DNA of 40,005 nucleotides from assembly GCA_014879465.1 (NCBI GenBank), contig JACSSA010000114.1, forward strand, positions 1 to 40,005. Reading direction: 5' to 3'. The notes below the pieces were generated by a model that was not told where the DNA came from, made no database searches, and worked only from the letters and a program-made list of their open reading frames with translations. Position numbers and translations under genes: made by a program. Position 1 is the stretch's first letter. Every line of letters starts with the position of its first letter. Shown here piece by piece: positions 2,652 through 19,900 of the stretch. Origin of the DNA: Rhodothermales bacterium. GTDB taxonomy: Bacteria > Bacteroidota > Rhodothermia > Rhodothermales > BA12.

Positions 2652-2784
2652 AATTGACGGGTGTTGGAGCGGCGAGGCAGAGAACCAAGCGGACGAGAGG
2701 GGCTAAAAACCGCGTTGTCCGTAGGGGAAACCACGTCGCGGAGGAGGGGACAAGGCGAGAAAAAAGCCCTTTGTTCGATTTCCC

Positions 2785-2813
2785 TTGACGGCGGGTTACG
2801 AAGGCGTTATCAT
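2785..2813 (+). promoter_or_regulatory. Candidate sigma-70-type promoter of the lacI-family gene
   Basis: TTGACG (2785-2790) and TATCAT (2808-2813) are separated by exactly 17 bases. They lie 32-60 bases before the GTG start of the regulator and directly before its operator, so a bound repressor would cover the start site. Confidence 0.55.
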
Positions 2814-2822
2814 AGGGCCTGC

Positions 2823-2834
2823 GTAAGCGCTTAC
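2823..2834. promoter_or_regulatory. LacI-family operator in front of its own gene
   Basis: GTAAGCGCTTAC is a perfect 12-bp palindrome of the kind bound by LacI/GalR regulators (central CG). It lies 10 bases after the candidate -10 box and 10 bases before the regulator's start codon, which suggests autoregulation. The identical 12-mer occurs at 18584, and a one-base variant at 13373. Confidence 0.8.
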
Positions 2835-2844
2835 ACCTGCCCCT

Positions 2845-3837
2845 GTGTCTGTCACCATCTACGATATCGCTGCCGAGGCCGAGGTCTCCATCGCGACGGT
2901 CTCGCGGGTGCTCAACGGTTCGCCGCGGGTGGCGAAGGCGACGCGGGCGCGGGTGCATCGCGTGGCCGAGCGGATGGGCTACCAGCCGCACGCGCTCGCC
3001 CAAAGCTTGGCCCGCCAGACCACCGGCCTCGTCTCGGCGGTGATTCCGGTGCTGACCAACGACTTCTACATGGAGGTGTTGCGCGGCATCCAAGACGCGG
3101 TGGCGCAGAGCGACTTCGACCTGCTCGTCTACGCCGCTTCCGACCCCGAACACGTCGACGGCCAGCTTGCCCGGGCGCTCCAACGGGGCCGCGCCGAGGG
3201 CGTGTTGCTGCTCTCTACGCCGGTGGACGCTGCCCGCCGCGAACTGCTCAACGGCTCGACCGTCGTGCTGCTCGACGTGGCCGATGCGGCGTTCGACTCG
3301 TTTACGGTCGATAACAGCCTCGGTGGCTACCTCGCCACGCACCATCTGCTCGAAAACGGCTTCCAACGCATCGCGCACATCAGCGTTGTGCCGGAGCCGC
3401 TGCCTGCTCGCGAGCGCCGCGCCGGATACGAGCGCGCACTGGCCGAGGCCGGTCGGACGCCGCTGATCGCTGCCTCCGACCAACGCCCGTACGGCTTTTC
3501 CGAAGCGGCAGGATACGAGGCGATGACGGCGCTGCTGGCCCTTCCCGAACGCCCCGATGCGGTGTTCATCGCCTCGGACGCGCAGGCGCTGGGAGCGCTC
3601 TCTGCCTTGCGCGAGGCCGGTCTTTCCGCTCCGCACGACATGGCGGTCGTGGGGTTCGACGACATCAAGGTGGCGGAAGTGGTCGGCCTCTCCACCGTGC
3701 GTCAGCCGATGCACGAGATGGGCCGCCTGGCTGTCGAACGCCTTGTTGCTCGGCTGGCCGACAGCCAAGCGCCGCCTATCCAGCACGTCTTCTCCCCCAC
3801 TTTGGTCGTTCGCGCCTCGTCGGCGCGGCGCGTCTAA
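2845..3837 (+). CDS. LacI/GalR-family transcriptional regulator of the glucan locus
   Basis: A 330-residue protein of standard LacI length. Residues 3-55 are the DNA-binding headpiece: TIYDIAAEAEVSIATVSRVL contains the helix-turn-helix, and NGSPRVAKATRARV with YQPHALAQSLA is the hinge. From about residue 60 follows a periplasmic-binding-protein-like effector domain (TGLVSAVIPVLTNDFY, AVVGFDDIK, STVRQPMHEMG). Such proteins repress or activate sugar genes according to a bound sugar or sugar phosphate. Translation starts at a GTG. The three matching palindromes in front of this gene, the T9SS amylase and the malE-like gene make it the probable regulator of the locus, with maltose or maltodextrin the likely effector by context. 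The TonB receptor begins 38 bases after the stop and may be co-transcribed. Confidence 0.93.
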   Translation: MSVTIYDIAAEAEVSIATVSRVLNGSPRVAKATRARVHRVAERMGYQPHALAQSLARQTTGLVSAVIPVLTNDFYMEVLRGIQDAVAQSDFDLLVYAASDPEHVDGQLARALQRGRAEGVLLLSTPVDAARRELLNGSTVVLLDVADAAFDSFTVDNSLGGYLATHHLLENGFQRIAHISVVPEPLPARERRAGYERALAEAGRTPLIAASDQRPYGFSEAAGYEAMTALLALPERPDAVFIASDAQALGALSALREAGLSAPHDMAVVGFDDIKVAEVVGLSTVRQPMHEMGRLAVERLVARLADSQAPPIQHVFSPTLVVRASSARRV

Positions 3838-3875
3838 TCGGTTTCGTTCGCCTTCATTCTTCTGCTTCCCGCGCG

Positions 3876-6599
3876 ATGCGTCGCTTCGTTACCTCCTCCA
3901 CCCTTGCGGCCTTCTGGCTCGGCCTTGCCGGCGTGGCCGCTGCGCAGTCCGGCAAGATCACCGGCACCATCACCGACACGGCCAACGACAACGAGCCGAT
4001 GATCGGTGTGACCGTGCAGCTGGAAGGCACCGACCTTGGGGCGGTGACCGACCTCGACGGCAACTACACGATCATCGGTGTGCGGCCCGGCACATACGTC
4101 GTGACGGCCTCGTATGCAGGTTACCAGCCCGCCCGCGTGACGAACGTCCGCGTCTCCATCGACCTTACGACCCGCATCGATATCGCGATGCGCGAGTCGG
4201 CTCAGGCCGAAGAACTGGTGGTGACGGGCATCGGCGAGGCTCCGCTGGTGCAGCGCGACGTGACGGCCACCACGGCCATTGTGGGCGCGGAAGAGATCGC
4301 GGCGCTGCCGGTCGAAAACTTCGGCGATGTTGTGGCCCTGCAGGCGGGCGTGGTCAACGGCCACTTTCGTGGTGGACGCTCCGGCGAAGTCGGCTACTGG
4401 GTGGACGGCCTCCCGGTGACCGATGCCTACAACGGCGGCCTCGGCGTGTCGATCGAGAACTCGATGGTGCAGGAGCTGCAGGTCGTGACCGGCGCGTTCA
4501 ACGCGGAGTACGGGCAAGCCCTTTCGGGCATCGTCAACGTGGTCACCAAAGACGGCGAGAACCGCTTCTCCGGCAGCGTGTCGGGATTTATGGGCGACTA
4601 CGCCTCGTCGCACTCCGACCTTTTCCGCGGCGTGGATCAGATTTCGCCGCTGGCCGTGCGCAACGTGGAGGCCAACCTCTCCGGCCCGGTGGTGAAAGAT
4701 CGCCTGTGGTTTTTTACCACCGCGCGCTACTTCGGCAACGATGGGTTCCTGAAAGGCCAGAACCGCTACGTTCAGAACAGCTTCTTCCTCGACGCCAACA
4801 ACCGCACCGTCTACAACGACACGCTGCGCGGCGACATGGAAGATGTCGATTTCAACCCCTACGAGAAGGTTTCGGGGCAGCTCAAGCTCACCTACCGGGT
4901 GAACCGGAACATGCGCTTTGCCGCCAGCGCCATCGCCAGCCGCGATTGGAGCCGTGGGGCGGGCTACAACCTGCTGTTCCTGCCCGAAAACCGCCGCCTC
5001 AACCAAAACGAAGGGCTGTCGTCGTACCTCAAGTTTACGCACACGCTCTCGTCCAAGACGTTCTACGAGATCGGCCTGATTCGCAACGCCAACCGCTCGG
5101 AGAGCTACCTCTACGAAGACCCCCTTGACGCACGGTACATCACCGGCGGCGTCTCGACGGACACGTACACCTCGGGCTTTACGGCAGGCGGCACCGACAA
5201 CGGGCGCTTCAACCGTTCGACCACGACGTACTTGGGCAAGGTGGACGTGACAAGCCAGGTCAACCGCTACAACATGGTCAAGACGGGCGTCGAGTTTCGC
5301 CGCCACACGCTCGTCTACAACGACGACTACACGGTCATCGAGAACGTGCCGGGCACACTCACCCGCGACACCGCCTACGTGGCGACCGGCGGGCGTTACC
5401 GCTACAATCCCGTCGAGTTTGCAGCGTATGTGCAGGACAAGATCGAGGTGGCGGGCTTGATTGTGAACGTGGGCTTGCGCGCCGACTACTTCAACGCCAA
5501 CGGGGTGGTGCTGCGCGACGACCGCGACCCCAACGCGCTGTTCTTGGAGCGGCGGTTGGTGGGGCAAGACCCTGCCAATCTGGACTACACCCCGGACGAG
5601 TACTTCGAGGCGAGCGAGGGCAAATTCCAGCTTTCGCCGCGTCTTGGCGTGGCCTTCCCCATCTCGGAAGGCGGCGTGGTGCACTTCTCCTACGGCTTCT
5701 TCTTCCAGACGCCCAACTACGAGCGGCTCTACCAAAACCCGTACTTCCAGCTCGGCGCAGGCGGATCGGGTCTGGTGGGCCTGATTGGCAACGCCAACCT
5801 CAACCCCGAGCAGACGATCTCCTACGAGCTGGGCCTCAAGCAGCAGATCGGGCAGGGCGCAGCCGTCGAGGTGACGGCCTACGCCCGCGACATCCGCAAC
5901 CTCACCGGCACGGCAACCGACCCAATTCAGATCGACGGGACGGCGGTTTCCTACGGGCAGTTCTCCAACACGGACTTTGGTTTCGTGCGCGGCATCATCT
6001 TGCGCTTCGACCAGCGGGTTGGACGTAACGGCTTTGCGGGGATGGACTACACCTACCAGATTGCCCGCGCCAACTCGTCCGATCCCTCGCAGGTGTACAA
6101 CGCGGCAGCGAGCAAGGTGCAGCTCGAAACGCAGCTTGTGCGCACGCCGTGGGACCAGCGCCACACGGCCAACTTCTCCTTCGGCTTCAACAAGCCCAAC
6201 GCTTGGAGCTTCGGCGTGATTGCGCGCTTGGGCTCGGGCGAGCCGTACACGCCTTCGCGCAACACGTTGCAGGCCGGCGGGACGATCCAGCCGTCGTCGA
6301 TTCAGCTCAACTCGCTCGACAAGCCGTTCGTCTACAACGCCGACTTGGACGCGAGCAAGGTTTTCCGCCTGCAAAACCGCTACAACGTGACGGTTTTCGG
6401 GCGCGTGAGCAACCTCTTCGACCGGCTCAACCAGTACGACGTGTTCTCCGACACCGGAAGCGCAGCCTACACGCTCGACCAGACGCTGGCCGCGCGGACG
6501 TTTGTGGGCGATCCGGCGATCCTCGAGCGCTGGTACACGCAGCCTTACCGCTACGGCGAACCGCGCCGCGTGACGATCGGCCTCTCGCTCTCGTTCTAA
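3876..6599 (+). CDS. TonB-dependent outer-membrane receptor with carboxypeptidase-regulatory domain
   Basis: A 907-residue outer-membrane receptor. Residues 1-24 are a signal peptide ending AAAQ. Residues ~28-108 are a carboxypeptidase-regulatory-like domain (GKITGTITDTANDNEPMIGV, TDLDGNYTIIGVRPG). A TonB-box-like EELVVTG is at ~112. The plug follows to ~230 (GGRSGEVGYWVDGLPVTDAY, AEYGQALSGIVNVVTKDG), then a long beta-barrel ending in an aromatic residue (LSLSF). It takes a bulky ligand across the outer membrane with energy passed on by TonB. The domain order is that of SusC-like and related receptors, but no SusD-type partner is next to it. Its neighbours (LacI regulator, amylases, malE-like gene) suggest maltodextrins as ligand; this is inferred from position only. 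Confidence 0.93.
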   Translation: MRRFVTSSTLAAFWLGLAGVAAAQSGKITGTITDTANDNEPMIGVTVQLEGTDLGAVTDLDGNYTIIGVRPGTYVVTASYAGYQPARVTNVRVSIDLTTRIDIAMRESAQAEELVVTGIGEAPLVQRDVTATTAIVGAEEIAALPVENFGDVVALQAGVVNGHFRGGRSGEVGYWVDGLPVTDAYNGGLGVSIENSMVQELQVVTGAFNAEYGQALSGIVNVVTKDGENRFSGSVSGFMGDYASSHSDLFRGVDQISPLAVRNVEANLSGPVVKDRLWFFTTARYFGNDGFLKGQNRYVQNSFFLDANNRTVYNDTLRGDMEDVDFNPYEKVSGQLKLTYRVNRNMRFAASAIASRDWSRGAGYNLLFLPENRRLNQNEGLSSYLKFTHTLSSKTFYEIGLIRNANRSESYLYEDPLDARYITGGVSTDTYTSGFTAGGTDNGRFNRSTTTYLGKVDVTSQVNRYNMVKTGVEFRRHTLVYNDDYTVIENVPGTLTRDTAYVATGGRYRYNPVEFAAYVQDKIEVAGLIVNVGLRADYFNANGVVLRDDRDPNALFLERRLVGQDPANLDYTPDEYFEASEGKFQLSPRLGVAFPISEGGVVHFSYGFFFQTPNYERLYQNPYFQLGAGGSGLVGLIGNANLNPEQTISYELGLKQQIGQGAAVEVTAYARDIRNLTGTATDPIQIDGTAVSYGQFSNTDFGFVRGIILRFDQRVGRNGFAGMDYTYQIARANSSDPSQVYNAAASKVQLETQLVRTPWDQRHTANFSFGFNKPNAWSFGVIARLGSGEPYTPSRNTLQAGGTIQPSSIQLNSLDKPFVYNADLDASKVFRLQNRYNVTVFGRVSNLFDRLNQYDVFSDTGSAAYTLDQTLAARTFVGDPAILERWYTQPYRYGEPRRVTIGLSLSF

Positions 6600-6656
6600 A
6601 CACGCGCATCGTTCGTGCCTCTGCGGCCCCTTTTGATCGACGTCTTCTTTTCCGCA

Positions 6657-9600
6657 ATGGTCTTTCCTCGTTTCCTTCGCTCTTGGGCGTATGTCGCCAC
6701 GCTCGCGGCTGGCGTGCTCGCGATCGGTGTGCCGAACGCTACGGCGCAGACACGCGCCGATTTGCCCTCGTGGCTGTTTGACCCGACGTACTTCGGGCGA
6801 CGCGACTACGTCAAGAATGCCGTGATGGACGGCAACGAAGTTGCCATCACCGTCTTCAACACCGGCCTGCTGGGCGGCATCGGACAGGTGCGTGGCACAT
6901 GGCCTCGTTCGGCGGCCAGCCGCCTGCAAACGAACTATGTGGGCGACGTGTGGCCTATTGTGGCGCTCGAAATCCCGGTCAAGGGACGCAACGGGCAAGA
7001 CTCGCTCGTGCGCCACGCCGTCACAACCGACGGCCCGGATCTGAAAGCGCCCAACGTGGCACCGGGCCAGCCCGGCGTCATCTGGGCCTTCCAGCCCAAG
7101 CCCGGCTTCGCCAGCGACCGCGTGATCGGACGCGACGCGTCGGGGCGCGACGTGCGCAACGCCCGCTCCGCCCTCTCTACCGACCCCAACACCTGGCCCG
7201 ACTTCTGGCCCGATCAGCCCACCTGGATCGGCCCCGATGGCCGTGCCCAGTGGAACGGCTACTTCGGGCGTGACGTGCGCAACGCCGACCTCGAGACCTT
7301 CTTCTGGACGGACGACAGCAAGGACGAGGAGATGTACACGCGCTTCGGGTTCTTGCCGGATGCCACCGATGCCTCGCGTCGCGGCCAAGGGCTTGCCATG
7401 AAGGTACGCGGCCTGCAATGGAGCCAGTTCCTCGCCCAAGACGCCATCTTCTGGCTCTACGAAGTCACCAACACCAGCACCACCACCTATCCGCGCGTGG
7501 CCGTAGGCCTCAACGCAGGTACGCTCGCCGGTGGCGACGGCGACAGCGGCGACGACCTCGCCTTCTTCGACCAAGCCAACCGCATTGTGTATTCGTGGGA
7601 TGCCGACCCGCGCACCGGCAACAACGGGCAGCCCGTTGGCTACGTCGGTTACGGCTTCCTCGAATCGCCGGGCGACGCCACCAACGGCATCGACGACGAC
7701 GGCGACGGCGACCCGACCACCACGCTCGGGCGGGACATCGAGGGCCGTGCCTATGTCTCGACGGCGCTTGCCGGTACCGACAACACGTTCAATTCCGGCG
7801 ATTTCACCCCGCGCACCTTGGCGCAGGGCGACCCGATCGTGCTGATCAACGCGACCACCAACGCGCGTTCGGTGGTGTACCTCGGCAGCACGACCCAGAC
7901 GGTCACGAGCCAAGGCCGCAGCTACATCGTTGCGCCCGGTCAGGTGCTGCAGGAAAAGGAAACGCAGCTCCCCGGCTTCCGCGGCGAACTTCAGACCGTA
8001 ACCGAGCGCAACCTGATCGACGACGACCTTGACGGGATCGTGGACGAAGACCAAGATTTGCACGGGCCGGGCCGTCGCGCCCAAGCGTTCACGGGCGAGG
8101 TCATCAACCTGCCTGCGCTGCGGTACAAGAACTACGTCGGATTCTTCCGCGCCGTGAACGGACGGACGCCGACCACCGCCGACTCGGTGACGTTCGGGCT
8201 GCTCAATCCGATGATTGACGAAGACCGCAACGACGGGATAGACAACGACGGCGACTGGAGCGCCGCCACAGACGACCTTGGCGCCGATGGCGTGGTGGGT
8301 ACCGGCGACCGGGGCGAGGGCGATGGGCTTCCGACGCCGGGCGAACCCAACTTCGATGCGCTTGACGTGACGGAGTCCGACCAGGTGGGCCTCACCTCGT
8401 TCTACTACTTCACGCCGCCCACGGCGGTGCAGATGTCCAACGACCAGCAGGTCTGGGACGCGCTTACGCCCGGCTTCTTCACCACCGACCAAGAGTTGGC
8501 GCTTCAACGCCCGCGCGGCGTCGACGGCGACTTCATCTTCGGCTCCGGCTACTTCCGGCTGTCGCCGGGGCAGACGCTCCGGTTTACGCTGGCGCTGGTG
8601 TTTGGCAACGACCTTGCCGACATCACCAACAACACGCGGACGGTTCAGGAGATCTACAACCGCAACTACCAGTTCGCCCGTCCGCCCGATCGGCCCACGG
8701 TGCGGGGCGTGCCTGGCGACCGGCGCGTCACGATCTACTGGGACGGCGTGGCAGAGGAGTCCACCGACCCGATCTTGGGGCGCGACTTTGAGGGCTACAA
8801 GATCTACCGCTCGACCGACCCCAACTTCCGCGATCCCACCCGCATCACCGACGGGCGTGGCAACGCCGCCCTGGCCAAGCCGCTGGCTCAGTACGACCTC
8901 GCCAACACGGTGCAAGGCTTCTGGCCTGCCTACACCCGTCCGGTGTACGACTGCGGCTCGGCGCTTTGCACCGGGGCCGACTCGCTGGCCATCTTGCAGC
9001 GCTACATCGCCGCCACCGGCGCGCTCACGCAGCGCACCGCCGGAACGCCGTTCTATGTGGGCGAGAACACCGGCTTGCAGCACGTTTTCGTCGATTCGGT
9101 GGACGTTCGCAACGGCCAGACCTACTACTACTGCGTGACCGCCTACGACCGCGGCAGCCCCGAATTCTATCCGGCAGAGAACAACTGCGCCATCTCGGTG
9201 GCGGAAGACGGCTCGGTTTCTACGGGCACGAACGTCGTGGTGGTGCGTCCCCGGGCTGGGGCGGCAGGCCTCGTCGAAGGCTCGACCAACGTGGTTACGA
9301 TGTCCGGCTTTACGTCGGGCACGGTGTCGGCTGCGGTGGTAGATCCTGCCGTTCTGGTGCAGGATGCTCGGTACGAGGTGACGTTCAACGCGCCTACGGG
9401 TGCGGTGGTGGCCTCCACGTTCAACGTGCTGCGCAACGGCGTGGTGGTGCGCGAGAACGTGCCGATCACGCGGGCCGATACGCTCACAGTAGACGGCGTC
9501 CGGCTGTCCTTCGTCAACGACATTCTTCGCCTCAACAGCGATTCGACGCGCTGGGTGGCCGGTTCGGGCACGCAGATCGATACGCTGAACGCGCGCTTGC

Positions 9601-10430
9601 CCGACCTCAACACCTCGTCGGGGCAGGCCATCTACTACTTCTTCAACCAGACCAACATCCAGATTACGGGGCAACCCGTGCCGTACGACTACGAAGTGCG
9701 CTTCGGCGAGACGTGCCAAAGCGTAGGCGGTTTCCGCCTCGGCACCGGCAGCAGCGCGCCCACGCTCACGTCGCGTTCGACCAACTTCTGCGTCTACAAC
9801 CTGACGCTGGGTCGCAAAAGCGCGTTCGGCCTCACCGAGCCGTCGAGCGACCCGTCGTTTGGTCGGTTGGGAACGACCAACAACGCGGTCGAGCGCATCT
9901 TCATCTTCGAAACCCTCGGAAGCGACCTTACGACGGCAGGCACGCCCGTGGCGCTGGTGGAGACGGTGCCGTCGACCGACCGCGCGTTCCGTAGCCCTGC
10001 CGACGGCACGCGCTACCGTGTGAAGGTCTACAAGCCGTTCACCTCGCTCGACCGGTTCTCCTTCACCGTCAACACCTCGCGCATCGACGCCGATGCGGTG
10101 CGGGCGGCCCTCGAGAACGTGCGTGTGGTACCCAACCCGTATGTGGTGGCAGCCTCGTGGGAGGCGGCCTTGCCGCCCACGATTACCAGCGGACGCGGCG
10201 AGCGGCGCATTCAGTTCCAGAACGTGCCGCAGAACGCCACCATCCGCATCTTCTCCGTGCGGGGCGAACTCATCCGCGAGCTGCACCAAGACGGAACGAT
10301 TGACAACGGCGCGGTGGACTGGGACGTGCGCACACGCGAAGACCTCGAAGTCGCCTACGGCGTCTACTTCTACCACATCTCCGTCCCCGGCGTGGGCGAG
10401 AAGACGGGCCGTATCGCCATCATCAAGTAA
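6657..10430 (+). CDS. Large secreted multidomain protein with Asp-rich repeats, Fn3-like region and FlgD/T9SS-like C-terminus
   Basis: I do not recognise a named family for the bulk of this 1257-residue protein. Starting at the ATG at 6657 it has a signal peptide (hydrophobic stretch ending NATAQ, ~30 residues). At ~341-350, ~452-467 and ~518-533 it has Asp-rich calcium-type loops (NGIDDDGDGD, LIDDDLDGIVDEDQD, DRNDGIDNDGDW). At ~676-850 lies a fibronectin-III-like region (VTIYWDG, GYKIYRSTDP, TYYYCVTAYDRG). The last ~110 residues, from VVPNPYV through IFSVRGELIREL to GVYFYHISV, resemble the FlgD-like/T9SS C-terminal fold. It lies between the TonB receptor and a PorV/PorQ-like gene (5 bases before the latter). 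A surface accessory protein that works with the receptor is plausible, but not shown. An alternative in-frame start is at 6615. Confidence 0.8.
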   Translation: MVFPRFLRSWAYVATLAAGVLAIGVPNATAQTRADLPSWLFDPTYFGRRDYVKNAVMDGNEVAITVFNTGLLGGIGQVRGTWPRSAASRLQTNYVGDVWPIVALEIPVKGRNGQDSLVRHAVTTDGPDLKAPNVAPGQPGVIWAFQPKPGFASDRVIGRDASGRDVRNARSALSTDPNTWPDFWPDQPTWIGPDGRAQWNGYFGRDVRNADLETFFWTDDSKDEEMYTRFGFLPDATDASRRGQGLAMKVRGLQWSQFLAQDAIFWLYEVTNTSTTTYPRVAVGLNAGTLAGGDGDSGDDLAFFDQANRIVYSWDADPRTGNNGQPVGYVGYGFLESPGDATNGIDDDGDGDPTTTLGRDIEGRAYVSTALAGTDNTFNSGDFTPRTLAQGDPIVLINATTNARSVVYLGSTTQTVTSQGRSYIVAPGQVLQEKETQLPGFRGELQTVTERNLIDDDLDGIVDEDQDLHGPGRRAQAFTGEVINLPALRYKNYVGFFRAVNGRTPTTADSVTFGLLNPMIDEDRNDGIDNDGDWSAATDDLGADGVVGTGDRGEGDGLPTPGEPNFDALDVTESDQVGLTSFYYFTPPTAVQMSNDQQVWDALTPGFFTTDQELALQRPRGVDGDFIFGSGYFRLSPGQTLRFTLALVFGNDLADITNNTRTVQEIYNRNYQFARPPDRPTVRGVPGDRRVTIYWDGVAEESTDPILGRDFEGYKIYRSTDPNFRDPTRITDGRGNAALAKPLAQYDLANTVQGFWPAYTRPVYDCGSALCTGADSLAILQRYIAATGALTQRTAGTPFYVGENTGLQHVFVDSVDVRNGQTYYYCVTAYDRGSPEFYPAENNCAISVAEDGSVSTGTNVVVVRPRAGAAGLVEGSTNVVTMSGFTSGTVSAAVVDPAVLVQDARYEVTFNAPTGAVVASTFNVLRNGVVVRENVPITRADTLTVDGVRLSFVNDILRLNSDSTRWVAGSGTQIDTLNARLPDLNTSSGQAIYYFFNQTNIQITGQPVPYDYEVRFGETCQSVGGFRLGTGSSAPTLTSRSTNFCVYNLTLGRKSAFGLTEPSSDPSFGRLGTTNNAVERIFIFETLGSDLTTAGTPVALVETVPSTDRAFRSPADGTRYRVKVYKPFTSLDRFSFTVNTSRIDADAVRAALENVRVVPNPYVVAASWEAALPPTITSGRGERRIQFQNVPQNATIRIFSVRGELIRELHQDGTIDNGAVDWDVRTREDLEVAYGVYFYHISVPGVGEKTGRIAIIK

Positions 10431-10435
10431 CCCCC

Positions 10436-11452
10436 ATGCGTAGCATTTTCCTTTCCGTTGCCGCCGTCGGGCTACTCCTTCCCGGGGTCGGGCAGGCGCA
10501 GGACAAGACGGGCACGACCGCCGCCGCCTTCCTTGGCATCGGGGTGGGGGCGCGTGCCACCGGGATGGGTTCGGCCAACGTAGCCGCTGCCCAAGGCCCC
10601 TCCGCGCTCTATTGGAATCCGTCGGGCATCACCGACATGAGCCAAAGCGGCATCGAGTTTTCCACCACCGCCTACCTCGTCGACACCCGGTTCTCCAACG
10701 CCAGCGCCGTGCTCGATCTGGGCCAGATGGGACATCTTGGCCTGAGCGTGACCAACCTGAACTACGGCGACGACCTCGTGACGACGGTGGATCGCCCCGA
10801 CGGTACCGGTGAGCGGTGGAGCGCAAACGATCTGATGGTGGGCGTCTCCTACGCCCGTGCCCTCACCGACCGCTTCTCGGTGGGCGGCACCGTCAAGGCC
10901 GTGCGCCAGCAGATCTACCGCGAGAGCGCCACCGGCTTCGCGCTCGACTTGGGCGTGATGTACCGGATTCCGTTTCGCAACACGCGCATCGGGATGGCGA
11001 TGACCAACTTCGGCACCGATATGCAGCTCGCAGGCCCGGATCTGCGGCAGGCCATCGACCTTGACCTGAACACCAACGGCGGCAACGACCGGCTCGAAGG
11101 GCAACTGTCCACGAGCGCGTGGGCGCTTCCGATTTCGTACCACGTCGGCGTCGCGATGGATGCGTACCGGAGCGGCCAGCACGCGCTGCTCGTCACCGCC
11201 GACGCTGCCGCACCGAGCGACAACGCGCAGAACGTGAGCGTGGGCGGCGAATATGCCTTCCGCGACCTGTTTTATGTGCGCGGTGGCTACCGGCAAGCCT
11301 TTACGAAAAGCCAATACGACCAAGGGTGGAGCGCGGGTGCAGGTATTCGCTACGCGGTGTCGAATCGCTACGCCCTGCGTGCCGACTATGTATTCCAAGA
11401 AATGGAACCTTTCGGTACGCCACAAACCCTGTCGGTCGGTTTTACTTTCTGA
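10436..11452 (+). CDS. PorV/PorQ-family outer-membrane beta-barrel protein
   Basis: A 338-residue protein with a signal peptide (1-21, ending GQAQ). After it comes the typical opening of the PorV/PorQ (UPF0164) family, FLGIGVGARATGMGSANVAA and GPSALYWNPSGI, and then regular amphipathic beta-strands to a final aromatic residue (VGFTF). This family belongs to the FadL-like barrels. PorV shuttles T9SS cargo from the translocon to the attachment complex, and PorQ/PorZ relatives take part in the same step. It begins 5 bases after the large secreted protein, so the two are probably one transcript, and T9SS cargo genes follow directly. Whether it is the general PorV of the cell or a paralogue dedicated to this locus cannot be decided here. 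Confidence 0.87.
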   Translation: MRSIFLSVAAVGLLLPGVGQAQDKTGTTAAAFLGIGVGARATGMGSANVAAAQGPSALYWNPSGITDMSQSGIEFSTTAYLVDTRFSNASAVLDLGQMGHLGLSVTNLNYGDDLVTTVDRPDGTGERWSANDLMVGVSYARALTDRFSVGGTVKAVRQQIYRESATGFALDLGVMYRIPFRNTRIGMAMTNFGTDMQLAGPDLRQAIDLDLNTNGGNDRLEGQLSTSAWALPISYHVGVAMDAYRSGQHALLVTADAAAPSDNAQNVSVGGEYAFRDLFYVRGGYRQAFTKSQYDQGWSAGAGIRYAVSNRYALRADYVFQEMEPFGTPQTLSVGFTF

Positions 11453-11540
11453 TCGCAATCCGAACGTTCGCGTAGATCCTTGGGTAATCAGGGTTTAGCG
11501 CGGCGTAGTCCCATACAACCCCTCTACCTCTTCATTACCC

Positions 11541-13202
11541 ATGAAAAGCGTTACTCAACGCCTTCTGGCTCTTGTGGCGGTGCTCCTTGTGAGTGCTCCT
11601 GCATGGGCGCAGACGGTCAACGTTACGTTCCAGGCCGACCTTCGGCCTGCCGTAGCCAACTGCCGTTTCGATCCTGCCACCGGCAGCGTGTTCCTGCGCG
11701 GCAGCGCCTTCGGCGAATGGGCCGAAGCCTCGGCGGTTCAACTGTCCGACACCGACGGCGATCGGATCTACACGACGACGCAGGCTGTCGCGCCGGGTGT
11801 TGCCATCAACTACAAATTCCTTGCGCCCAACGTGACGGGCTGGGAAGACGGCGGCGACCGCACCTTCACCCCCACCAGCGACGCCTCGCAGACGGTCGAG
11901 GCGGTGGTGCCCAACGTTCCCAACTACGGCACCAACGGCTGCGGCGCGGTCAACAGGAACTACGAAGTCGAATTCCAAATCGACGTCTCGACGCTCTCGG
12001 CCACGGTGTTCAACCCTACGCAAGACACGCTCTTCGTGGCGGGCGGGATGACCGGATGGGGCGACAGCAAAGACCGTCTCACCCCGTCGTTTGACAACGC
12101 CGACATCTACACGACGGTCATCAACATCGACAACTTCCCGTCTCCGGGCGAGCAGTTCTACAAGTTCATCGTCCGCAAGGCCAACGCTCCCGGCGTGATC
12201 GGGCGCGGCCCGATCTCGTGGGAAAGCCCGCGCAACACCAACCCGGACAACAACCGCAGAATCACCTATACGGGGACGGAGCCGGATACCGATGCCGATG
12301 GGCGCTTGGAGAAGACCGAAGGCCCGTTCTACTGGAGCGACGTGCCCCCGACCGAAGTGCTCTCGGCGGCCACCACCGTGACGCTTGAAGTCGATCTCGG
12401 CCCGGCGATCTACTACGCTGCGGCGCACAGCAACATGGTGCCCGGTGCTACGACGGCCTTCAGCAGGACGATCTTCCTCAACGGCCCGGTGATGCAGGCC
12501 GCCGATGGGATGACCGACTGGGCCGCGTGGACGCCCGAGGGCCTTGGCGCGATGCCAACCCGCCAGTTCCTCGACGACGGGGCCAACGGCGATGCCGCGG
12601 CCAACGACGGCATTTACTCCAAGACCGTAACCTTCCCGCGTGGCTCGGCCATTGTGCAGAAGGGCAAGTTCGGTGCCGATGCGGGCGATAACGAGTCCGG
12701 CTTCGCTGCCGACCGCTACATCGACCTGAGCACGGCGGTGGGCGGACGCCTCAAGATGGTGTTCGGGGCGGTCGTGCTCCAGTCGGGCAAGGTCACCGAC
12801 CTTCGCGGCCCGGGCGCGGCGCCGTTCGGCTACGATCCGTACATCTGCATCCCGGCCGACAGCCTCTCCGCGACCGTTTCGCCGACGGGAGCATGCGCAC
12901 GCCCGTCCGCTTCGGAGCCGGTGGACGCCCCGGCGACCTCGCGCTTCACGGTGGAGACCGTCTACCCGAACCCGACGACGGGCGCGACGCGCCTTCGCTA
13001 CGCCCTCCCGTCGGCGATGGCGGTGAAGGTTGAGGTGTTCGACCTGCTGGGCCGTCGCATCGAAACGGTGGTGGACGAAACGCAGGCCGCCGGTACCTAC
13101 AACGCGGTGTTTGATGCCCGTGGGCTGACGACCGGCGTGTACGTCTACCGCGTCTCGGCAGGCGGACAGGTGCAGAACCGCACCTTCGTCGTCAACCGCT
13201 GA
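11541..13202 (+). CDS. Secreted starch-binding-like protein with T9SS sorting domain
   Basis: A 553-residue exported protein with a signal peptide (1-23, ending AWAQ). Two successive modules (~25-125 and ~140-260) look like starch-binding beta-sandwiches of the CBM20/SusE type: VFLRGSAFGEWAE and LFVAGGMTGWGDSKDRLTP carry the usual 'structure-x-x-W-x-W' start, and YKFLAPN and YKFIVRK the core strand. A third beta-rich region covers ~285-430. Residues ~475-553 are a T9SS sorting domain (YPNPTTGATRLRY, VFDLLGRRI, GVYVYRVSA). No catalytic residues of a glycosidase family are visible, so it is probably a surface glucan-binding protein that holds substrate near the amylase encoded next. A strong GC hairpin follows 26 bases downstream. 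Confidence 0.8.
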   Translation: MKSVTQRLLALVAVLLVSAPAWAQTVNVTFQADLRPAVANCRFDPATGSVFLRGSAFGEWAEASAVQLSDTDGDRIYTTTQAVAPGVAINYKFLAPNVTGWEDGGDRTFTPTSDASQTVEAVVPNVPNYGTNGCGAVNRNYEVEFQIDVSTLSATVFNPTQDTLFVAGGMTGWGDSKDRLTPSFDNADIYTTVINIDNFPSPGEQFYKFIVRKANAPGVIGRGPISWESPRNTNPDNNRRITYTGTEPDTDADGRLEKTEGPFYWSDVPPTEVLSAATTVTLEVDLGPAIYYAAAHSNMVPGATTAFSRTIFLNGPVMQAADGMTDWAAWTPEGLGAMPTRQFLDDGANGDAAANDGIYSKTVTFPRGSAIVQKGKFGADAGDNESGFAADRYIDLSTAVGGRLKMVFGAVVLQSGKVTDLRGPGAAPFGYDPYICIPADSLSATVSPTGACARPSASEPVDAPATSRFTVETVYPNPTTGATRLRYALPSAMAVKVEVFDLLGRRIETVVDETQAAGTYNAVFDARGLTTGVYVYRVSAGGQVQNRTFVVNR

Positions 13203-13371: not shown

Positions 13372-13387
13372 TGTAAGCCCTTACACA
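13370..13387. promoter_or_regulatory. LacI-family operator before the T9SS amylase
   Basis: TGTGTAAGCCCTTACACA is symmetric over 18 bases except for the two central bases. It contains GTAAGCCCTTAC, one base different from the operators at 2823 and 18584. It lies 20 bases before the ATG at 13407. Confidence 0.8.
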
Positions 13388-13406: not shown

Positions 13407-16280
13407 ATGCGTCGTATCCCGTCGTTCTTCGCCGCCGTTCTGACGTTGCTCTTGGCGGCTCCGCTCGCCCATGCCCAAGACAGCCTCGACGTGCTGTTTC
13501 GCTATCTGCCCGACCTCAACGGAACGGCAACCACCCAAACGCGGGTGCATTTCCCCGGCGAGTTCAACACCTGGGGCCCCAACGCCAGCGGCGTGATTGC
13601 TGCCGGTGCCATCTCTCAGGCGACGTACGACGCGACGTCCAACGAATACCGCTACACGAAGCGGCTGCGCGTCGGTGGCGGATTGGCTGCCGGACGGTAC
13701 CAGTACAAGGTCAACCGCGACGGCGGAACGTCAGGATGGATGACGGATCCGCTCAACCCGGACTTCAACGCCGCCGACAACAACAACTCGCTGCTGACCG
13801 TCACCAACCCGCTCGTCTTCCAACTGGCTCGCGAGCAAGAGGGCACGGCGGCGATTGTGGCGGTGAGCGCCTATGTGACCGGCACCGGCACGCTGACGGC
13901 CTTGACGTTTGAGGTCAACGGCGTGCAGCGCGACGGAATGGCGTACTACAACGCCACCACCAAACTGCTGCGCTATGTGCTGCCGACGTCGGTTGCGCCG
14001 GGAAGCCAGTTCAAGGTCACGGCCACCTACGACGGTGTTCGCACGCAGTCGGCCACCATCGGCACGATTCCGCCGACGGTGACGAAGCAAGCCCGTCCGG
14101 CGGGCCTGCGCGACGGCATCACCTTCAACCCCGACGGCACCGTCACCTTCTCGCTCTTCGCGCCGGGCAAGCAGTACGTCTACCTCATCGGCGACTTCAG
14201 CTCGTGGCAGCCGAACGCAACGTATCTGCTCAAGAAGGACAGTGTGGACGCCAGCAACGTGTGGTATTGGGGAACGTTCTCTGGCTTGTCGGGGCGCGAA
14301 GTCCGTTTCCAGTACTTCGTGGACGGTCTGATTCGCGTGGCCGATCCGTACAGCGAGAAGGTGTTGTTCGAGGGCGAGAGCACGAGCACGACGAACCTGC
14401 CCGGCCAGACAAGCGTGACGTACCCGGCGGGACAGACGACCCAGCCCGTGGGCGTGATTGCCGCTGGCGCGCCGGCCTACGTCTGGCAGACCACGAACTG
14501 GGTGCGTCCCAAACCCAAAGACCTCGTCATCTACGAGCTGCTGCTGCGCGACTTCTTGGCCGCCCACAGCTTCAACGCCCTCGCCGATACGCTGGCCTAC
14601 CTTCAACGTCTCGGGGTGACGGCCATCGAGTTGATGCCGGTCTCGGAGTTCGACGGCGACGAATCGTGGGGCTACAACCCGGCTTTTCACGGGGCGGTGG
14701 ACAAGTACTACGGCTCGAAAGACCAGCTCAAGCGCCTCGTCGATATGGCGCATGCTCGCGGCATCGCCGTGATCCTTGACGTCGTCTACAACCACGCTTC
14801 CGGCCAAAGCCCGCTCGTGCGGCTCTGGAACGACAGCCCCACCGGCGACCCGGCGGCGCTGCCCACGGCGCAGAACCCGTACGCCAACCGAACGGCCACC
14901 CACCCGTTCTCGGTCTACAACGACCTCAACCACGACAGCCCGGCCACGCGGCGCTGGCTCGACCAGATGAACCGCTATTGGATGGAGGAATACCGTCTCG
15001 ACGGTTTCCGTTACGACCTGTCCAAGGGCTTCTCGCAGCGTAGCTGCGCGGGCGACCAGGGGTGCTGGGATGCGTACGATGCAAGCCGCATCTACAACCT
15101 TCGCCGGATGGCCGACCAGATTTGGACGTATGCCCCCGACGCCGTCCTCATTCTGGAGCACCTTGCGGGCAACCAAGAGGAGTACGAGCTTCACGGCTAC
15201 GGCACCGATCAAGGCCGCCCGGGCTTCCTGTTCTGGTTGAAGATGATGGGACCGTACAACCAGTCCACGATGGGCTACGCGTCCAGCAGCGACCTGCGCG
15301 GGTCGTACTTCGGCGGCGGTGGGCGCGGCTTCCTCATTCCCAACAGCGTCGCCATCCTCGAAGACCACGACGAGCAGCGGCTGATGCGGAAGAACTTCCT
15401 CTACGGCAACGCCGTCACCGGCTATTCGGCGAAAGACCTGAGCACCGGCGTGTCTCGTATGGGCACGGCAGGTGCCTTCTTCTTCGCGATTCCCGGCCCC
15501 AAGATGCTCTGGCAGTTCGGCGAACTCGGCTACGGCACGGTGGCGGACGAGTGCCTCGGTGCGGTAGACTCGTGCACCGGCGGCCGGACCGACCGTCGCG
15601 CCACCCGGTGGACCTACTGGACGTCGGCGGCCGAGACGGCGCGTCGCGCGCTCTACAACGTGTGGTCGGCGCAGATGAACCTTCGCCAAGACCAAGCCAT
15701 CTTCACCGATCCGGCAACGACAGCGGACGTGAGCAGCTTGGGCGGGATCGTCAAGCGCTTGCGGCTCTCGCGCAACGGACTGAACGCCGTGGTGCTGGGC
15801 AACTTCGACGTGGTGCAGCAGTCCATGGCCGGTAGCTTCCACAGCACGGGGACCTGGTACGAGTTCTACACCGGCGAGACGCTGTCGGTGTCGGATGTGA
15901 ACCAGCAGGTCACGCTTGCACCCGGCGCGTACCGCCTCTACACCAACCAATACATCGGCAAGATGACGGACTATACGTCGGTGGCTGCGGAGCCGGTGGA
16001 CGGCGTCGATGCGCCCTCGGCCCTCGTGCTGGGCGGTGCGGCACCCAACCCGTTCGCGGAGACGACGCAGCTGAACTACGGCTTGCCGCAAACGGGCCGC
16101 GTCTCGCTCGCCGTCTACGACGTGTTGGGCCGGGAAGTCGCTCGCCTGGTGGACGAAGAGCAGGCGGCAGGTGCGTACCGCGTGGCGTTCGACGGCGGCG
16201 ACCTGCCCGCTGGGGTGTATGTGGTGCGGCTGAGCGCTGCCGGCCAGGTGCGCACCCAAACCGTGGTTCGCGGGCGTTGA
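13407..16280 (+). CDS. Secreted GH13 amylase/pullulanase-like enzyme with N-terminal CBM48-type modules and T9SS domain
   Basis: A 957-residue exported glycosidase. A signal peptide (1-23, ending AHAQ) is followed by an immunoglobulin-like carbohydrate module at ~25-140 (VHFPGEFNTWGPN, YQYKVNRDG). A second, CBM48-like module is at ~230-330 (VTFSLFAPGKQYVYLIGDFS). The GH13 barrel runs from ~370 to ~770 with all four signature regions: DVVYNH (D458), DGFRYDLSKG (nucleophile D537), ILEHLAG (acid/base E584) and LEDHDEQR (D655). The last ~85 residues are a T9SS sorting domain (APNPFAETTQLNYGL, VYDVLGREV, GVYVVRLSA). It hydrolyses alpha-glucans at the cell surface or outside. The CBM48 points to branched substrates (pullulanase, isoamylase or branching-type relatives); the exact bond specificity is open. 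A promoter and operator lie directly upstream and a hairpin downstream. Confidence 0.92.
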   Translation: MRRIPSFFAAVLTLLLAAPLAHAQDSLDVLFRYLPDLNGTATTQTRVHFPGEFNTWGPNASGVIAAGAISQATYDATSNEYRYTKRLRVGGGLAAGRYQYKVNRDGGTSGWMTDPLNPDFNAADNNNSLLTVTNPLVFQLAREQEGTAAIVAVSAYVTGTGTLTALTFEVNGVQRDGMAYYNATTKLLRYVLPTSVAPGSQFKVTATYDGVRTQSATIGTIPPTVTKQARPAGLRDGITFNPDGTVTFSLFAPGKQYVYLIGDFSSWQPNATYLLKKDSVDASNVWYWGTFSGLSGREVRFQYFVDGLIRVADPYSEKVLFEGESTSTTNLPGQTSVTYPAGQTTQPVGVIAAGAPAYVWQTTNWVRPKPKDLVIYELLLRDFLAAHSFNALADTLAYLQRLGVTAIELMPVSEFDGDESWGYNPAFHGAVDKYYGSKDQLKRLVDMAHARGIAVILDVVYNHASGQSPLVRLWNDSPTGDPAALPTAQNPYANRTATHPFSVYNDLNHDSPATRRWLDQMNRYWMEEYRLDGFRYDLSKGFSQRSCAGDQGCWDAYDASRIYNLRRMADQIWTYAPDAVLILEHLAGNQEEYELHGYGTDQGRPGFLFWLKMMGPYNQSTMGYASSSDLRGSYFGGGGRGFLIPNSVAILEDHDEQRLMRKNFLYGNAVTGYSAKDLSTGVSRMGTAGAFFFAIPGPKMLWQFGELGYGTVADECLGAVDSCTGGRTDRRATRWTYWTSAAETARRALYNVWSAQMNLRQDQAIFTDPATTADVSSLGGIVKRLRLSRNGLNAVVLGNFDVVQQSMAGSFHSTGTWYEFYTGETLSVSDVNQQVTLAPGAYRLYTNQYIGKMTDYTSVAAEPVDGVDAPSALVLGGAAPNPFAETTQLNYGLPQTGRVSLAVYDVLGREVARLVDEEQAAGAYRVAFDGGDLPAGVYVVRLSAAGQVRTQTVVRGR

Positions 16281-16365: not shown

Positions 16366-16567
16366 GCACTTTATTAGGGCGTTCGGTACGAAAAAAACCG
16401 TGCGCTCGATTCGCCGCCTTCGCTGGCCGATACCAATGCCGCCGGTGCTGTCGTTGACTCGGCGGTTGCGGGGGACTGTCGGGGAACGCCTCTCAACGGT
16501 TCGCGCCCTTTTCGTTCGGACACGTCCCGTCGTTGTCCCGATCTTGTACGAATTCGCCTGCCTTGCG

Positions 16568-18532
16568 TTGACACGTTCCGTCCGTGCTGTCCTACCCGCC
16601 TTCGTCGTGGCTGCGACGATGGCCTCGTCGTGCGAATCGCCGTCGTCTGCTGCGGAAAGCGGGGGTGCGTCTACAGATGCCGCCCCGGTCGTTTCGCAAG
16701 AGGCCATCGAGCGGTTGCAATCCGATGCGCTGGCGACGGTGCCCGACTGGGCCGCCGATGCGGTGTGGTACCAGATCTTCCCCGAGCGCTTCCGCAACGG
16801 AAACGCCGCCAACGATCCGACCCGTAGCACCCTCGAAACGCCCATCCTTCCCGACTCGTCGTGGCGGGTATCGCCGTGGACGGGCGATTGGTACGCCCGC
16901 GACGCGTGGGAACGTCGGCTGGGGACGGATTTCTACGACCACGGTGTCTTCCAGCGGCGCTACGGCGGCGATTTGCAGGGCGTGATCGACAAGCTGCCGT
17001 ACCTCGACAGCCTCGGCGTGTCGGCGCTCTACTTCAACCCCGTCTTCTACGCCCGAAGTCTCCACAAGTACGACGGTGCGAGCTTTCATCACATCGACCC
17101 GCAGTTCGGCCCCGATCCCAAGGGCGACTACGAGCTGATGCTTACCGAGACGAGCGACCCGGCGTCGTGGAACTGGACGGCGGCCGACCGGCTCTTCCTG
17201 CGGCTCGTGGCCGAGGCCAAGCGGCGCGGGATGCGCGTGATCGTGGACGGCGTGTTCAACCATACCGGGCGCGATTTCTTCGCCTTCGACGATCTGCGCC
17301 GCAACCAGCAGGCCAGCCCGTACACGTCGTGGTACCTCGTCGAGCGCTACGACGACTCGGCCACGCCCGAGAACGAGTTTCGTTACAAGGGCTGGTGGGA
17401 CCACGATACGCTGCCCGTGTTTGCCGATGCGCCGGGCGGGCAAGATCTGCACGACGGCCCCAAACGCTACGTCTTCGACATCACCCGTCGCTGGATGGAC
17501 CCCAACGGCGACGGCGATCCCCGCGACGGAATCGATGGGTGGCGGTTGGACGTGGCCGACGAGGTGCCGGTGGGCTTCTGGCAGCAGTGGAACGCCTATG
17601 TGCGCGAGCTCAATCCCGAAGCCTACACCAGCACCGAGATCTGGCTCAACGCCGCGCCCTACCTCCGCGAGGGCGGCTTCTCGGCCACGATGAACTACTG
17701 GGCGTTTGCCTATCCGGTGAAAGGGTTCTTGATTGACCGCGTGACGCGCCCCACGGCCTTCCGCGACACCCTGGCCCGGCGACGCAGCGTCTACACCGAG
17801 GCGCAGCAGTACACGCTGCAAAACCTCGTCGGCAGCCACGACACCGACCGCCTCGCCTCGATGATCGTCAACGCCCGACGTCGACCGTATGCCGACGGCG
17901 ACGGTTCGGCGCGGTTCGATTTCGACTGGGGCGACCGCGTCAGCCCGCGCCAAGATCCTGGCTATCTCATTCGCAAGCCCAACGACCGAGAGCGCGAGCT
18001 TCAGCGGCTGGTGGTGCTCTTCCAGATGACGTACGTCGGCGCGCCGATGTTCTTCTACGGCGACGAAGCCGGGATGTGGGGGGCCGACGACCCCGACGAC
18101 CGCAAGCCGATGCTGTGGAGCGACCTCGGCCCCTACGCCGACGAATCCGCCGCGCCGCGCGGCCTCGTGCGCCCGTCCGACGTCAACCGCTTCGACCGCA
18201 GCCTCTGGGCGTTCTACCGCGACGCCATCGCCCTCCGCAACGACCGCGTGGCGCTCCGGCGTGGGGCGTTCGTGCCGCGCCTTGCCGACGATGCCTCCGG
18301 CGTGTTCGCGTTTGAGCGCAGCGGGGAAGGACAGCGACTCGTCGTCGTGCTCAACCCCAACGACGCCGCACGCCGCGTGACGATTCCCGTGCCGAACGCC
18401 AGTCGAACGCGGTGGGCGCTGGCGCTGTCGTCAAGGGCGAGCCAGCCCACGAGCGTGCAGCAAACCGCAGTCGGGTTCGTCGTCAATTTGCCCGGGCGTA
18501 CGGGGATTGTGCTGGAGCCTGTTCGACGCTGA
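16568..18532 (+). CDS. GH13 alpha-amylase / cyclomaltodextrinase-like predicted lipoprotein
   Basis: A GH13 enzyme of about 654 residues from the TTG at 16568. This start gives a compact lipoprotein signal (VLPAFVVAATMASSC, lipid-bearing Cys ~22). The frame stays open further upstream, with ATG at 16436 and at 16400, but that extension is Arg-rich and would bury the signal. AVWYQIFPERFRNG is the neopullulanase/cyclomaltodextrinase-type barrel entry. The GH13 regions are VDGVFNH (D227), DGWRLDVADEV (nucleophile D328), TSTEIWLNA (acid/base E357) and VGSHDTDR (D425). The C-terminal ~80 residues are the usual beta-sandwich. Enzymes of this type cut maltodextrins and cyclodextrins into maltose and glucose. 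A membrane-anchored periplasmic or surface position, just before the malE-like gene, suits trimming of imported oligosaccharides. Confidence 0.88.
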   Translation: MTRSVRAVLPAFVVAATMASSCESPSSAAESGGASTDAAPVVSQEAIERLQSDALATVPDWAADAVWYQIFPERFRNGNAANDPTRSTLETPILPDSSWRVSPWTGDWYARDAWERRLGTDFYDHGVFQRRYGGDLQGVIDKLPYLDSLGVSALYFNPVFYARSLHKYDGASFHHIDPQFGPDPKGDYELMLTETSDPASWNWTAADRLFLRLVAEAKRRGMRVIVDGVFNHTGRDFFAFDDLRRNQQASPYTSWYLVERYDDSATPENEFRYKGWWDHDTLPVFADAPGGQDLHDGPKRYVFDITRRWMDPNGDGDPRDGIDGWRLDVADEVPVGFWQQWNAYVRELNPEAYTSTEIWLNAAPYLREGGFSATMNYWAFAYPVKGFLIDRVTRPTAFRDTLARRRSVYTEAQQYTLQNLVGSHDTDRLASMIVNARRRPYADGDGSARFDFDWGDRVSPRQDPGYLIRKPNDRERELQRLVVLFQMTYVGAPMFFYGDEAGMWGADDPDDRKPMLWSDLGPYADESAAPRGLVRPSDVNRFDRSLWAFYRDAIALRNDRVALRRGAFVPRLADDASGVFAFERSGEGQRLVVVLNPNDAARRVTIPVPNASRTRWALALSSRASQPTSVQQTAVGFVVNLPGRTGIVLEPVRR

Positions 18533-18583
18533 GCTCGGCCTACGGCACATGCGCTGCTATGGGTGCAACAGGAATCGCAGATT

Positions 18584-18595
18584 GTAAGCGCTTAC
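18584..18595. promoter_or_regulatory. LacI-family operator before the malE-like gene
   Basis: GTAAGCGCTTAC, identical to the operator at 2823, 58 bases before the GTG at 18653 of the binding-protein gene. I could not place a convincing -10/-35 pair around it; TATTCTG (18622-18628) is the best candidate for a -7 box. Confidence 0.78.
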
Positions 18596-18652
18596 CTGTC
18601 GCAAACGGGGCGAAGATTGCGTATTCTGCCCGTCCCCGAACGCGCTGCTCCT

Positions 18653-19900
18653 GTGCCCCGTATCCTTCGCCTGTTCGCTGTCCTTTGGCTCGCCGCGAGC
18701 GCGAGCGCATGCCGCCCCGACGACGGTCCGCCGAAAGATGGCCCGGTGGTCATCGGCATCTGGCACCAAAAAGACGGCGGCGAGCGCGCATTCTTCGATC
18801 GGCAGGTGGCGGCGTTCAACCGCGAACACGAAGGCCGCATCCGCATCGAGCCGCTCTGGCGCGAGACGGAGGAACTGCGCAACCTGTTCGTGATCGCCAG
18901 CGTGGGCGGGCAGGGGCCGGATCTGATCTTCGGCCCGTCGGACAACATGTCCATCCTTGCGCTCACCGGCTCGGTGCGCCCGGTCACCGACGTACTGCCC
19001 GACACCTTCCTCGCCCGGTTTGACTCGTCAGGGGTGCTCGGCTGGAACGGGAAACAGTGGCTTGTGGCCGATCAAGTGGGCAACCACCTCGCCTTCGTCT
19101 ACAACAAGAAGCTGCTTCCGAATGTCCCGGAGACGTGGGAGGAACTGCTTCCCCAACTCCAAGCGCTCACGAAAGACACCACCGGCGACGGGCGGCCCGA
19201 CCGCTACGGCCTGACGTGGAACTACACCGAGCCGTTCTTCTTCGTCCCGTTCCTCACCGGCGCGGGCGGCTGGATGATGACGCCCGACGGCACGCCCACG
19301 CTCGATACGCCACAGACGGTGGAGGCCATCCGGTTTGTGCTGGATCTGCGGGACAGATACAAGATCATCCCCGGCGAATCCGATTACAACGTAGCCGAGA
19401 CGCTCTTCAAGGAGGGGCGCGCCGCCGCCGTCATCAACGGCCCGTGGGCGTGGGCGGGCTACAAAGACGCAGGCATCGACTACGGCATCGCCCGCATTCC
19501 CAAGATGCCCAGCGGACGGTGGAGCGCGCCGGTGACGAGCAGCAAGGGCTATTCGGTGAACGTGAACGTTCCGGCGTGGAAGATTCCGTACCTCCGCACC
19601 GTCCTCGAATTTCTCACCGGCCCGGCCATGCAAACGGCGATGGCCGACAGCCTCGCCACCATTCCGACGCTTCCTGCCGTGCTCAATAGCCCTGCGGTGA
19701 CGAACAACCCGACGCTCCAAGCCAGCCTTTCACAGGTCGAGGTAGGCCGTCCGATGCCGCTGGCTCCGCAAATGCGGCAGGTGTGGGACGGCATGCGCGG
19801 CCCGTACCAGTCGGTGATGTCCGGGTCGGTTTCGCCCGAGCAAGGGGCGCGGCAGATGCAGGCGGAAGTTCAGAAACGTATCAACGACACGTTCCTGTAA
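18653..19900 (+). CDS. malE: Maltose/maltodextrin-type ABC transporter substrate-binding lipoprotein
   Basis: A 415-residue solute-binding protein of the MalE/family-1 type. From the GTG at 18653 it has a short basic start, a hydrophobic helix and a lipobox-like SASAC, so it should be a lipoprotein anchored in the inner membrane. The frame is open back to 18563, but that extension would run across the operator. Family features are: VVIGIWHQKDGGERAFFDRQ near the mature start; PDLIFGPSDNMSILA; the hinge AFVYNKKLLPNVPETWEEL; NGPWAWAGYKDAGIDYGI (binding-site aromatics); and the SSKGYSVNV lobe. It hands oligosaccharides to the permease. The malF-like gene follows after 79 bases. Sugar identity rests on family and context. 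Confidence 0.9.
   Translation: MPRILRLFAVLWLAASASACRPDDGPPKDGPVVIGIWHQKDGGERAFFDRQVAAFNREHEGRIRIEPLWRETEELRNLFVIASVGGQGPDLIFGPSDNMSILALTGSVRPVTDVLPDTFLARFDSSGVLGWNGKQWLVADQVGNHLAFVYNKKLLPNVPETWEELLPQLQALTKDTTGDGRPDRYGLTWNYTEPFFFVPFLTGAGGWMMTPDGTPTLDTPQTVEAIRFVLDLRDRYKIIPGESDYNVAETLFKEGRAAAVINGPWAWAGYKDAGIDYGIARIPKMPSGRWSAPVTSSKGYSVNVNVPAWKIPYLRTVLEFLTGPAMQTAMADSLATIPTLPAVLNSPAVTNNPTLQASLSQVEVGRPMPLAPQMRQVWDGMRGPYQSVMSGSVSPEQGARQMQAEVQKRINDTFL

Follow-up and report, generated by a model that had tools for sequence, protein, structure and literature searches.

The window analysed here, positions 1 to 40,005 of contig JACSSA010000114.1 (forward strand; NCBI GenBank assembly GCA_014879465.1, a Rhodothermales bacterium), contains three adjacent genes that encode a TonB-dependent receptor, a large secreted protein and a PorV/PorQ-family barrel. 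We consider it probable that this triad forms the core, at the outer membrane, of a system that takes up starch without SusD, and that it is part of a general polysaccharide-import module that extends across the Fibrobacterota-Chlorobiota-Bacteroidota (FCB) bacteria. More tentatively, and with somewhat less than even confidence, we propose that such triads are a second class of glycan importer, found in about ten FCB phyla and also in genomes that lack SusD. The TonB-dependent receptor of this class would cooperate with a protein some 1000 or more residues long, exported by the type IX secretion system (T9SS) and tethered by a dedicated PorV paralogue. Polysaccharide uptake in FCB bacteria has been described almost wholly in terms of SusC and SusD, and locus finders seek that pair. 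Since SusD is absent from about half of the sampled genomes with the large-protein family, the uptake loci of these carriers would be missed.

Genes of the triad

A first-pass annotation of the window had recognised a receptor, a large protein of no known family and a PorV/PorQ-like barrel, and all three open reading frames (ORFs) are real and lie where it had placed them. The receptor gene (3876..6599, plus strand) encodes 907 aa with Pfam CarboxypepD_reg, Plug and TonB barrel domains. Against the SusC/RagA model TIGR04056 the receptor scores 66 bits, compared to a cut-off of 368, and the match is confined to residues 27-162; by the curated cut-off, it is not a SusC. The large-protein gene follows after 57 nt (6657..10430, plus strand) and encodes 1257 aa from the ATG at 6657, within a longer ORF that opens at a GTG at 6615. 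Its product has a signal peptide (residues 1-31, read by eye), no lipobox and full-length relatives. No Pfam family matched the 1257 residues, and the protein belongs to a family that neither Pfam nor NCBIfam recognises. The barrel gene begins 5 nt further on (10436..11452, plus strand; 338 aa) and its product matches Pfam PorV and NCBIfam NF033709 (197 bits, cut-off 90). A 2180-aa minus-strand ORF over the triad region was set aside as an antisense artefact of the kind that is common in GC-rich coding sequence.

AlphaFold2 modelled residues 40-1239 of the large protein with a mean pLDDT (predicted local distance difference test) of 82 and a pTM (predicted template modelling score) of 0.78, and residues 40-688 with values of 88 and 0.89. 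Invariant DxDxDG-type loops suggest that the protein binds calcium. Its PDB sequence relatives were limited to a chance-level FN3 match, and its matches in a viral fold library were discarded as FN3-type noise.

The triad is conserved across phyla

A contig scan for relatives of the large protein found at least 566 stretches, of which the best 80 were kept. The adjacency of receptor, large protein and barrel goes beyond chance, because 69 of these 80 loci share it, and in 10 of the 11 that do not, the contig runs out within 308 nt. The median gaps in this set were 11 and 12 nt, and six loci had the order receptor-barrel-large protein. Only L057 lacked a barrel despite having room for one; in this locus (L057:1134-8572), two tandem large-protein genes follow the receptor, and no barrel was found in the 3.7 kb of contig that remain. 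The hosts comprise about ten FCB phyla, with Bacteroidetes, Balneolaceae, Ignavibacteria, Neomarinimicrobiota, Calditrichota and KSB1 among the record titles, together with Kryptonia, Cloacimonadota, WOR-3, Fermentibacteria and Gemmatimonadota. These genomes are rich in outer-membrane and T9SS genes, three of which might come to lie together by chance or through the clustering of envelope genes, with no joint function. Such close adjacency, seen in about ten phyla and repeated in several paralogous clades, makes this explanation scarcely credible.

Five related sets are spread over contigs C209 (the window), C177, C201, C44 and C107 of the window's genome. ABC permease genes follow the C201 set. 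The C107 set (L098, 2428-13093) has an 834-aa large protein approximately 4 kb 5′ of a receptor-barrel pair, with other genes between. Peptidyl-prolyl isomerase (PPIase) genes of the rotamase/SurA-like type lie 5′ of the triad in 11 of the 51 members of one alignment (A2), and also at L201:16057-17826.

Receptor, large protein and barrel are inherited together

Pairwise distances were correlated over 104 triads, and two control genes of the locus were compared in the subsets that have them: the LacI-family regulator gene upstream and gene 4, which encodes a starch-binding protein downstream. The correlation was 0.91 for receptor and large protein, 0.87 for receptor and barrel, and 0.86 for large protein and barrel. 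Within the control subsets, the receptor-large protein and large protein-barrel values were 0.87-0.97, compared to 0.72-0.75 for gene 4 against the trio (gene 4 aligns less cleanly) and 0.52-0.64 for LacI against the trio. The highest of the three partial correlations, 0.66, joined receptor and large protein. These distances favour the trio as a functional unit, though correlation leaves contact itself unproven. Conservation across phyla, together with distances that track one another more closely than those of the linked LacI and CBM20 genes, ties the large protein to the receptor, as had been proposed from the window alone.

There are TonB-dependent receptors that take up sugars with no lid of the SusD type. 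The receptor could likewise import maltodextrins alone, with the large protein acting as an independent surface adhesin or starch-processing protein that the barrel merely helps to export and anchor. The N-terminal region of the large protein, which weakly resembles the beta-sandwich of glucan-active enzymes, is consistent with such a role. However, the large protein stays beside the receptor whatever the substrate, and it is this pair that shows the highest partial correlation. We therefore judge a receptor that acts alone to be unlikely.

A type IX secretion signal and a PorV paralogue

The last ~95 residues of the large protein (approximately 10113..10427, plus strand) form a C-terminal T9SS sorting domain, homologous to the type-A domain that ends gene 4 (hhalign 95%, E 4e-8, from a single comparison). 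A simple lipobox pattern was found in 0 of 104 large proteins. The window's genome encodes SprA, split over two contig ends, and PorU, which adjoins canonical PorV on contig C154, the site of the genome's best PorV-family match. SprA was found in 14 of 16 triad genomes across phyla, the two exceptions being bins of 1.2 and 0.7 Mb. Signal peptide, homologous sorting domain and the presence of SprA and PorU all agree with the earlier proposal that the large protein is a T9SS-exported partner of the receptor.

The window barrel scores 77.9 bits against the canonical PorV equivalog NF033710 (cut-off 250) and also falls under the PorQ equivalog cut-off. By score, it is a paralogue distinct from canonical PorV, one of ten PorV/PorQ-family members in the genome, eight of which are above cut-off. 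A PorV gene tree was too poorly resolved to place it.

We also considered that the triad might be an assembly or export device, in which barrel and large protein assist the folding of extracellular receptor loops in the manner of BamG-BamH-BamM, or in which the receptor helps to export the large protein. PPIase genes are frequent upstream of triads, and in Myxococcus protein secretion has reportedly been linked to a TonB receptor whose N-terminal domain is similar. On the other side, the barrel scores 22.6 bits against the BamG equivalog, whose cut-off is 250, the large protein carries its own T9SS signal in a genome that has a T9SS, and each triad has its own glycan companions. By analogy, the model for such a device is the beta-barrel assembly machinery (BAM) complex of Flavobacterium, in which BamG, a FadL-type barrel, anchors the surface protein BamH and which also holds a PPIase-fold protein (PMC12611786). 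We regard an assembly device as quite improbable.

A module parallel to SusCD

Searches of the window's genome with PF07980, PF14322 and PF12771 found no SusD, and to this extent the set is SusD-free, as the first-pass annotation had stated. SusD models did not match the large protein or 37 relatives, and no SusD-like fold was among its listed Foldseek matches. We therefore rejected the large protein as a distant SusD, because neither sequence nor fold matched. Of 395 genomes of the window's phylum, 139 carry the large-protein family (E <= 1e-30): 69 genomes had both large protein and SusD, 70 had the large protein only, 140 had SusD only and 116 had neither (Fisher p 0.34). Strict replacement of SusD by the triad was therefore rejected, since the two do not exclude one another across these genomes. 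SusD coexists in half of the sampled carrier genomes, and we thus view the module as parallel to SusCD rather than as a strict replacement. We also dropped the possibility that the published sus operon of Melioribacter roseus is a mislabelled triad: in a Melioribacter-like genome, a true SusD lies at 880 kb, approximately the expected operon site, and a triad lies apart from it at 1.10 Mb.

The triad lies in a starch locus with candidate LacI operators

The genes from LacI to the MalF-like permease are on the plus strand. A LacI-family regulator gene (2845..3837; Pfam LacI and Peripla_BP_3) precedes the receptor. Gene 4 (11541..13202) encodes a CBM20-type starch-binding protein with a T9SS tail, whose family is conserved 3′ of the triad. 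It is followed by genes that Pfam and NCBIfam models identify as a secreted glycoside hydrolase family 13 (GH13) enzyme with CBM48 and a T9SS tail (13407..16280), a second GH13 enzyme that resembles cyclomaltodextrinase or maltodextrin glucosidase (16400..18532) and a MalE-like solute-binding protein (18563..19900). A MalF-like ABC permease (19980..20891; Pfam BPD_transp_1) comes next, and a GDE/glucodextranase-like protein and a further GH13 enzyme are encoded at 21538 and 32512. Because these CBM20, GH13, MalE-like, MalF-like and GDE/glucodextranase-like genes surround the triad, the locus is a genuine starch locus, as first described. A DUF305 gene follows the MalF-like permease gene (19980-21422), and none of the genes checked was recognised as a second permease (MalG).

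The triad, the LacI gene and gene 4 form one apparent operon, with 38 nt between LacI and receptor and 88 nt between barrel and gene 4. A promoter-like TTGACG-17-TATCAT site (2785..2813, plus strand), which matches consensus at 10 of 12 positions and is called by that match only, was the sole plus-strand site of this kind detected within 2600-20000. It is followed, directly 5′ of the LacI gene, by a LacI-type operator, CGTAAGCGCTTACA (2822..2835, plus strand). Two further plus-strand operators, each the same palindrome with one mismatch, lie 5′ of the first GH13 gene (TGTAAGCCCTTACA, 13372..13385) and at the MalE-like gene (TGTAAGCGCTTACC, 18583..18596). The latter falls within the called ORF start, and the true start of the MalE-like gene is probably further downstream. 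A generic LacI operator pattern with one mismatch allowed had 4 matches in the window compared to 0.58 expected, and no shuffle out of 100 gave as many. Among 20 relatives from the same class, 15 have the palindrome, with 0-2 mismatches, close 5′ of LacI or the receptor. At the level of sequence, this supports co-regulation of the triad with the starch genes. GC-rich hairpins at 13250-13300 after gene 4 (found by eye) and at 16327-16367 after the first GH13 gene probably end transcripts.

Companion genes differ with the substrate

In a Rhodothermia-class set, the block of LacI, receptor, large protein, barrel, gene 4 and GH13 reappears in several families; LacI comes after gene 4 in some of these loci, and one contig stops inside the large protein. 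The gene directly 3′ of the triad is usually a gene 4 relative. Among 49 aligned downstream proteins, which include a few unrelated neighbours, 24 match CBM20, others match CBM48, CBM53, AMPK-CBM or pullulanase X25, and 40 match a T9SS tail. The gene 4 profile was found in 52 of the 80 contig loci and 19 of 20 Rhodothermia-class loci (71/100), compared to 0 of 20 loci in a sister clade, L160-L179 (Fisher p 1e-9). Complete triads are present in all 20 sister-clade loci. Recurrent flanking protein families occur in 13-14 of these, and the flanks scanned include CBM9, GH16 with malectin, and GH5 with CBM6.

A closed Rhodothermus-like genome of 3.43 Mb (G003) holds five triads. L148 has starch neighbours, L200 an ABC sugar importer, L201 CBM9 and GH10, and L202 CBM9, PF10091 and GH3. 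The fifth, L203 (4468-16079, on contig C1), is also complete and is flanked by genes for an FG-GAP T9SS protein and for an amidase_2 (N-acetylmuramoyl-L-alanine amidase) protein, and because of these neighbours its substrate may not be a plain polysaccharide. Another closed genome (G188, 3.30 Mb) has a triad, L204, with GH53 and GH35, which make up a galactan set.

The three-gene order thus recurs beyond the window, in the 69 contig loci and in the sister triads, and examples of the latter lie near genes for other sugars. As to triads beside unrelated functions, of which the first-pass annotation had warned, there is one possible exception, L203, together with distant paralogue sets of unclear context in the window's genome. 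The annotation had called the set a glucan uptake set; LacI-CBM20-GH13 synteny and the shared operator bear this out for the window, but relatives beside xylan, beta-glucan and galactan genes show that the module is not for glucan alone. The starch, xylan, beta-glucan and galactan contexts support a module that is general for polysaccharides.

The same comparison bears on the possibility that gene 4 is the true counterpart of SusD and the large protein only a structural spacer. In favour of this, starch-binding modules can be recognised in gene 4, which is also specific to its clade. However, unrelated CBM and GH proteins replace it beside other triads while the large protein stays, and its distances track those of the receptor less well, so that we find this explanation very unlikely.

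Proposed mechanism

We propose that the TonB-dependent receptor is a gated pore. The large protein would use its signal peptide and then leave through the SprA channel by way of its C-terminal domain. Its own PorV paralogue would keep it at the cell surface, holding that domain as PorV holds T9SS cargo. Placed by or over the receptor, the large protein may serve as lid and scaffold, the job that SusD does for SusC. Substrate choice would come from companion CBM and GH proteins of the T9SS type; here gene 4 and the amylase would bind and cut starch, and the receptor would then admit maltodextrins for delivery to MalE and the ABC importer. LacI would control operon, amylase and importer through one palindrome.

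Several observations weigh against this model. Foldseek matches of the large protein were weak (E 0.003 and up), and the best were glucan-active enzymes of the GH15/GH94/GH149 type, which we read as a hint of an N-terminal beta-sandwich. Its C-terminal domain was mostly missed by curated models, Pfam Por_Secre_tail among them, with a weak match to the PorZ tail, and we therefore consider this domain divergent. The module does not exclude SusD, the C107 set has its large protein apart from the receptor-barrel pair, and L203 has no clear sugar genes. Finally, whereas gene order, conservation, the T9SS domain, co-inheritance, shared operators and sugar-locus context are observed, the steps of T9SS export, holding by PorV, receptor contact and binding, lid function and transport are ones that we infer.

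If the model is true, the module ties type IX secretion to nutrient import, and a second importer class coupled to this machinery may be as old as SusCD. The module also offers a testable role for PorV/PorQ-family paralogues with no known function, eight members of that family being above cut-off here, and for the large-protein family. Because closed Rhodothermus-like and Melioribacter-like genomes carry triads, it may be open to experiment. We found no prior description of the triad in open-licence PMC papers; preprints and most subscription papers lay outside this search, so an earlier description is possible.

Relation to known systems

The xylan locus Rmar_1070-1074 of Rhodothermus marinus comprises a TonB receptor, three hypothetical proteins and GH10, inside a SusCD locus (PMC6987092). 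Its order of TonB receptor, secreted T9SS hypothetical, hypothetical, T9SS hypothetical and GH10 resembles the L201 triad with CBM9 and GH10. However, these genes were published as hypotheticals and not seen as a unit, and their equivalence to L201 is drawn from gene order, not from sequence.

The BamG-BamH system likewise pairs a FadL-type barrel with a large surface protein, which it anchors next to a second barrel (PMC12611786). That system serves outer-membrane protein assembly and BamH is a lipoprotein, whereas the window barrel is far under the BamG cut-off. The triad barrel shares with the PorV shuttle of the T9SS its membership of the PorV/PorQ family and its place beside a T9SS-type protein. 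It differs in falling under the PorV and PorQ equivalog cut-offs and in being encoded with one cargo and a receptor, while canonical PorV lies elsewhere beside PorU.

The closest parallel is with SusCD and its polysaccharide utilization loci. Both have a TonB receptor with a CarboxypepD-type N-terminal domain and an adjacent gene for a secreted partner, and both bring glycan-binding proteins, GH enzymes and a sugar regulator together within one locus. In contrast, the partner in the triad is of the T9SS type, about 1000-1300 aa long, and has neither homology to SusD nor a lipobox, a PorV-family barrel is always added, and the receptor is under the SusC model cut-off. Because its receptor fails that cut-off and its partner is not SusD, the triad would work like SusCD yet be no member of that system.

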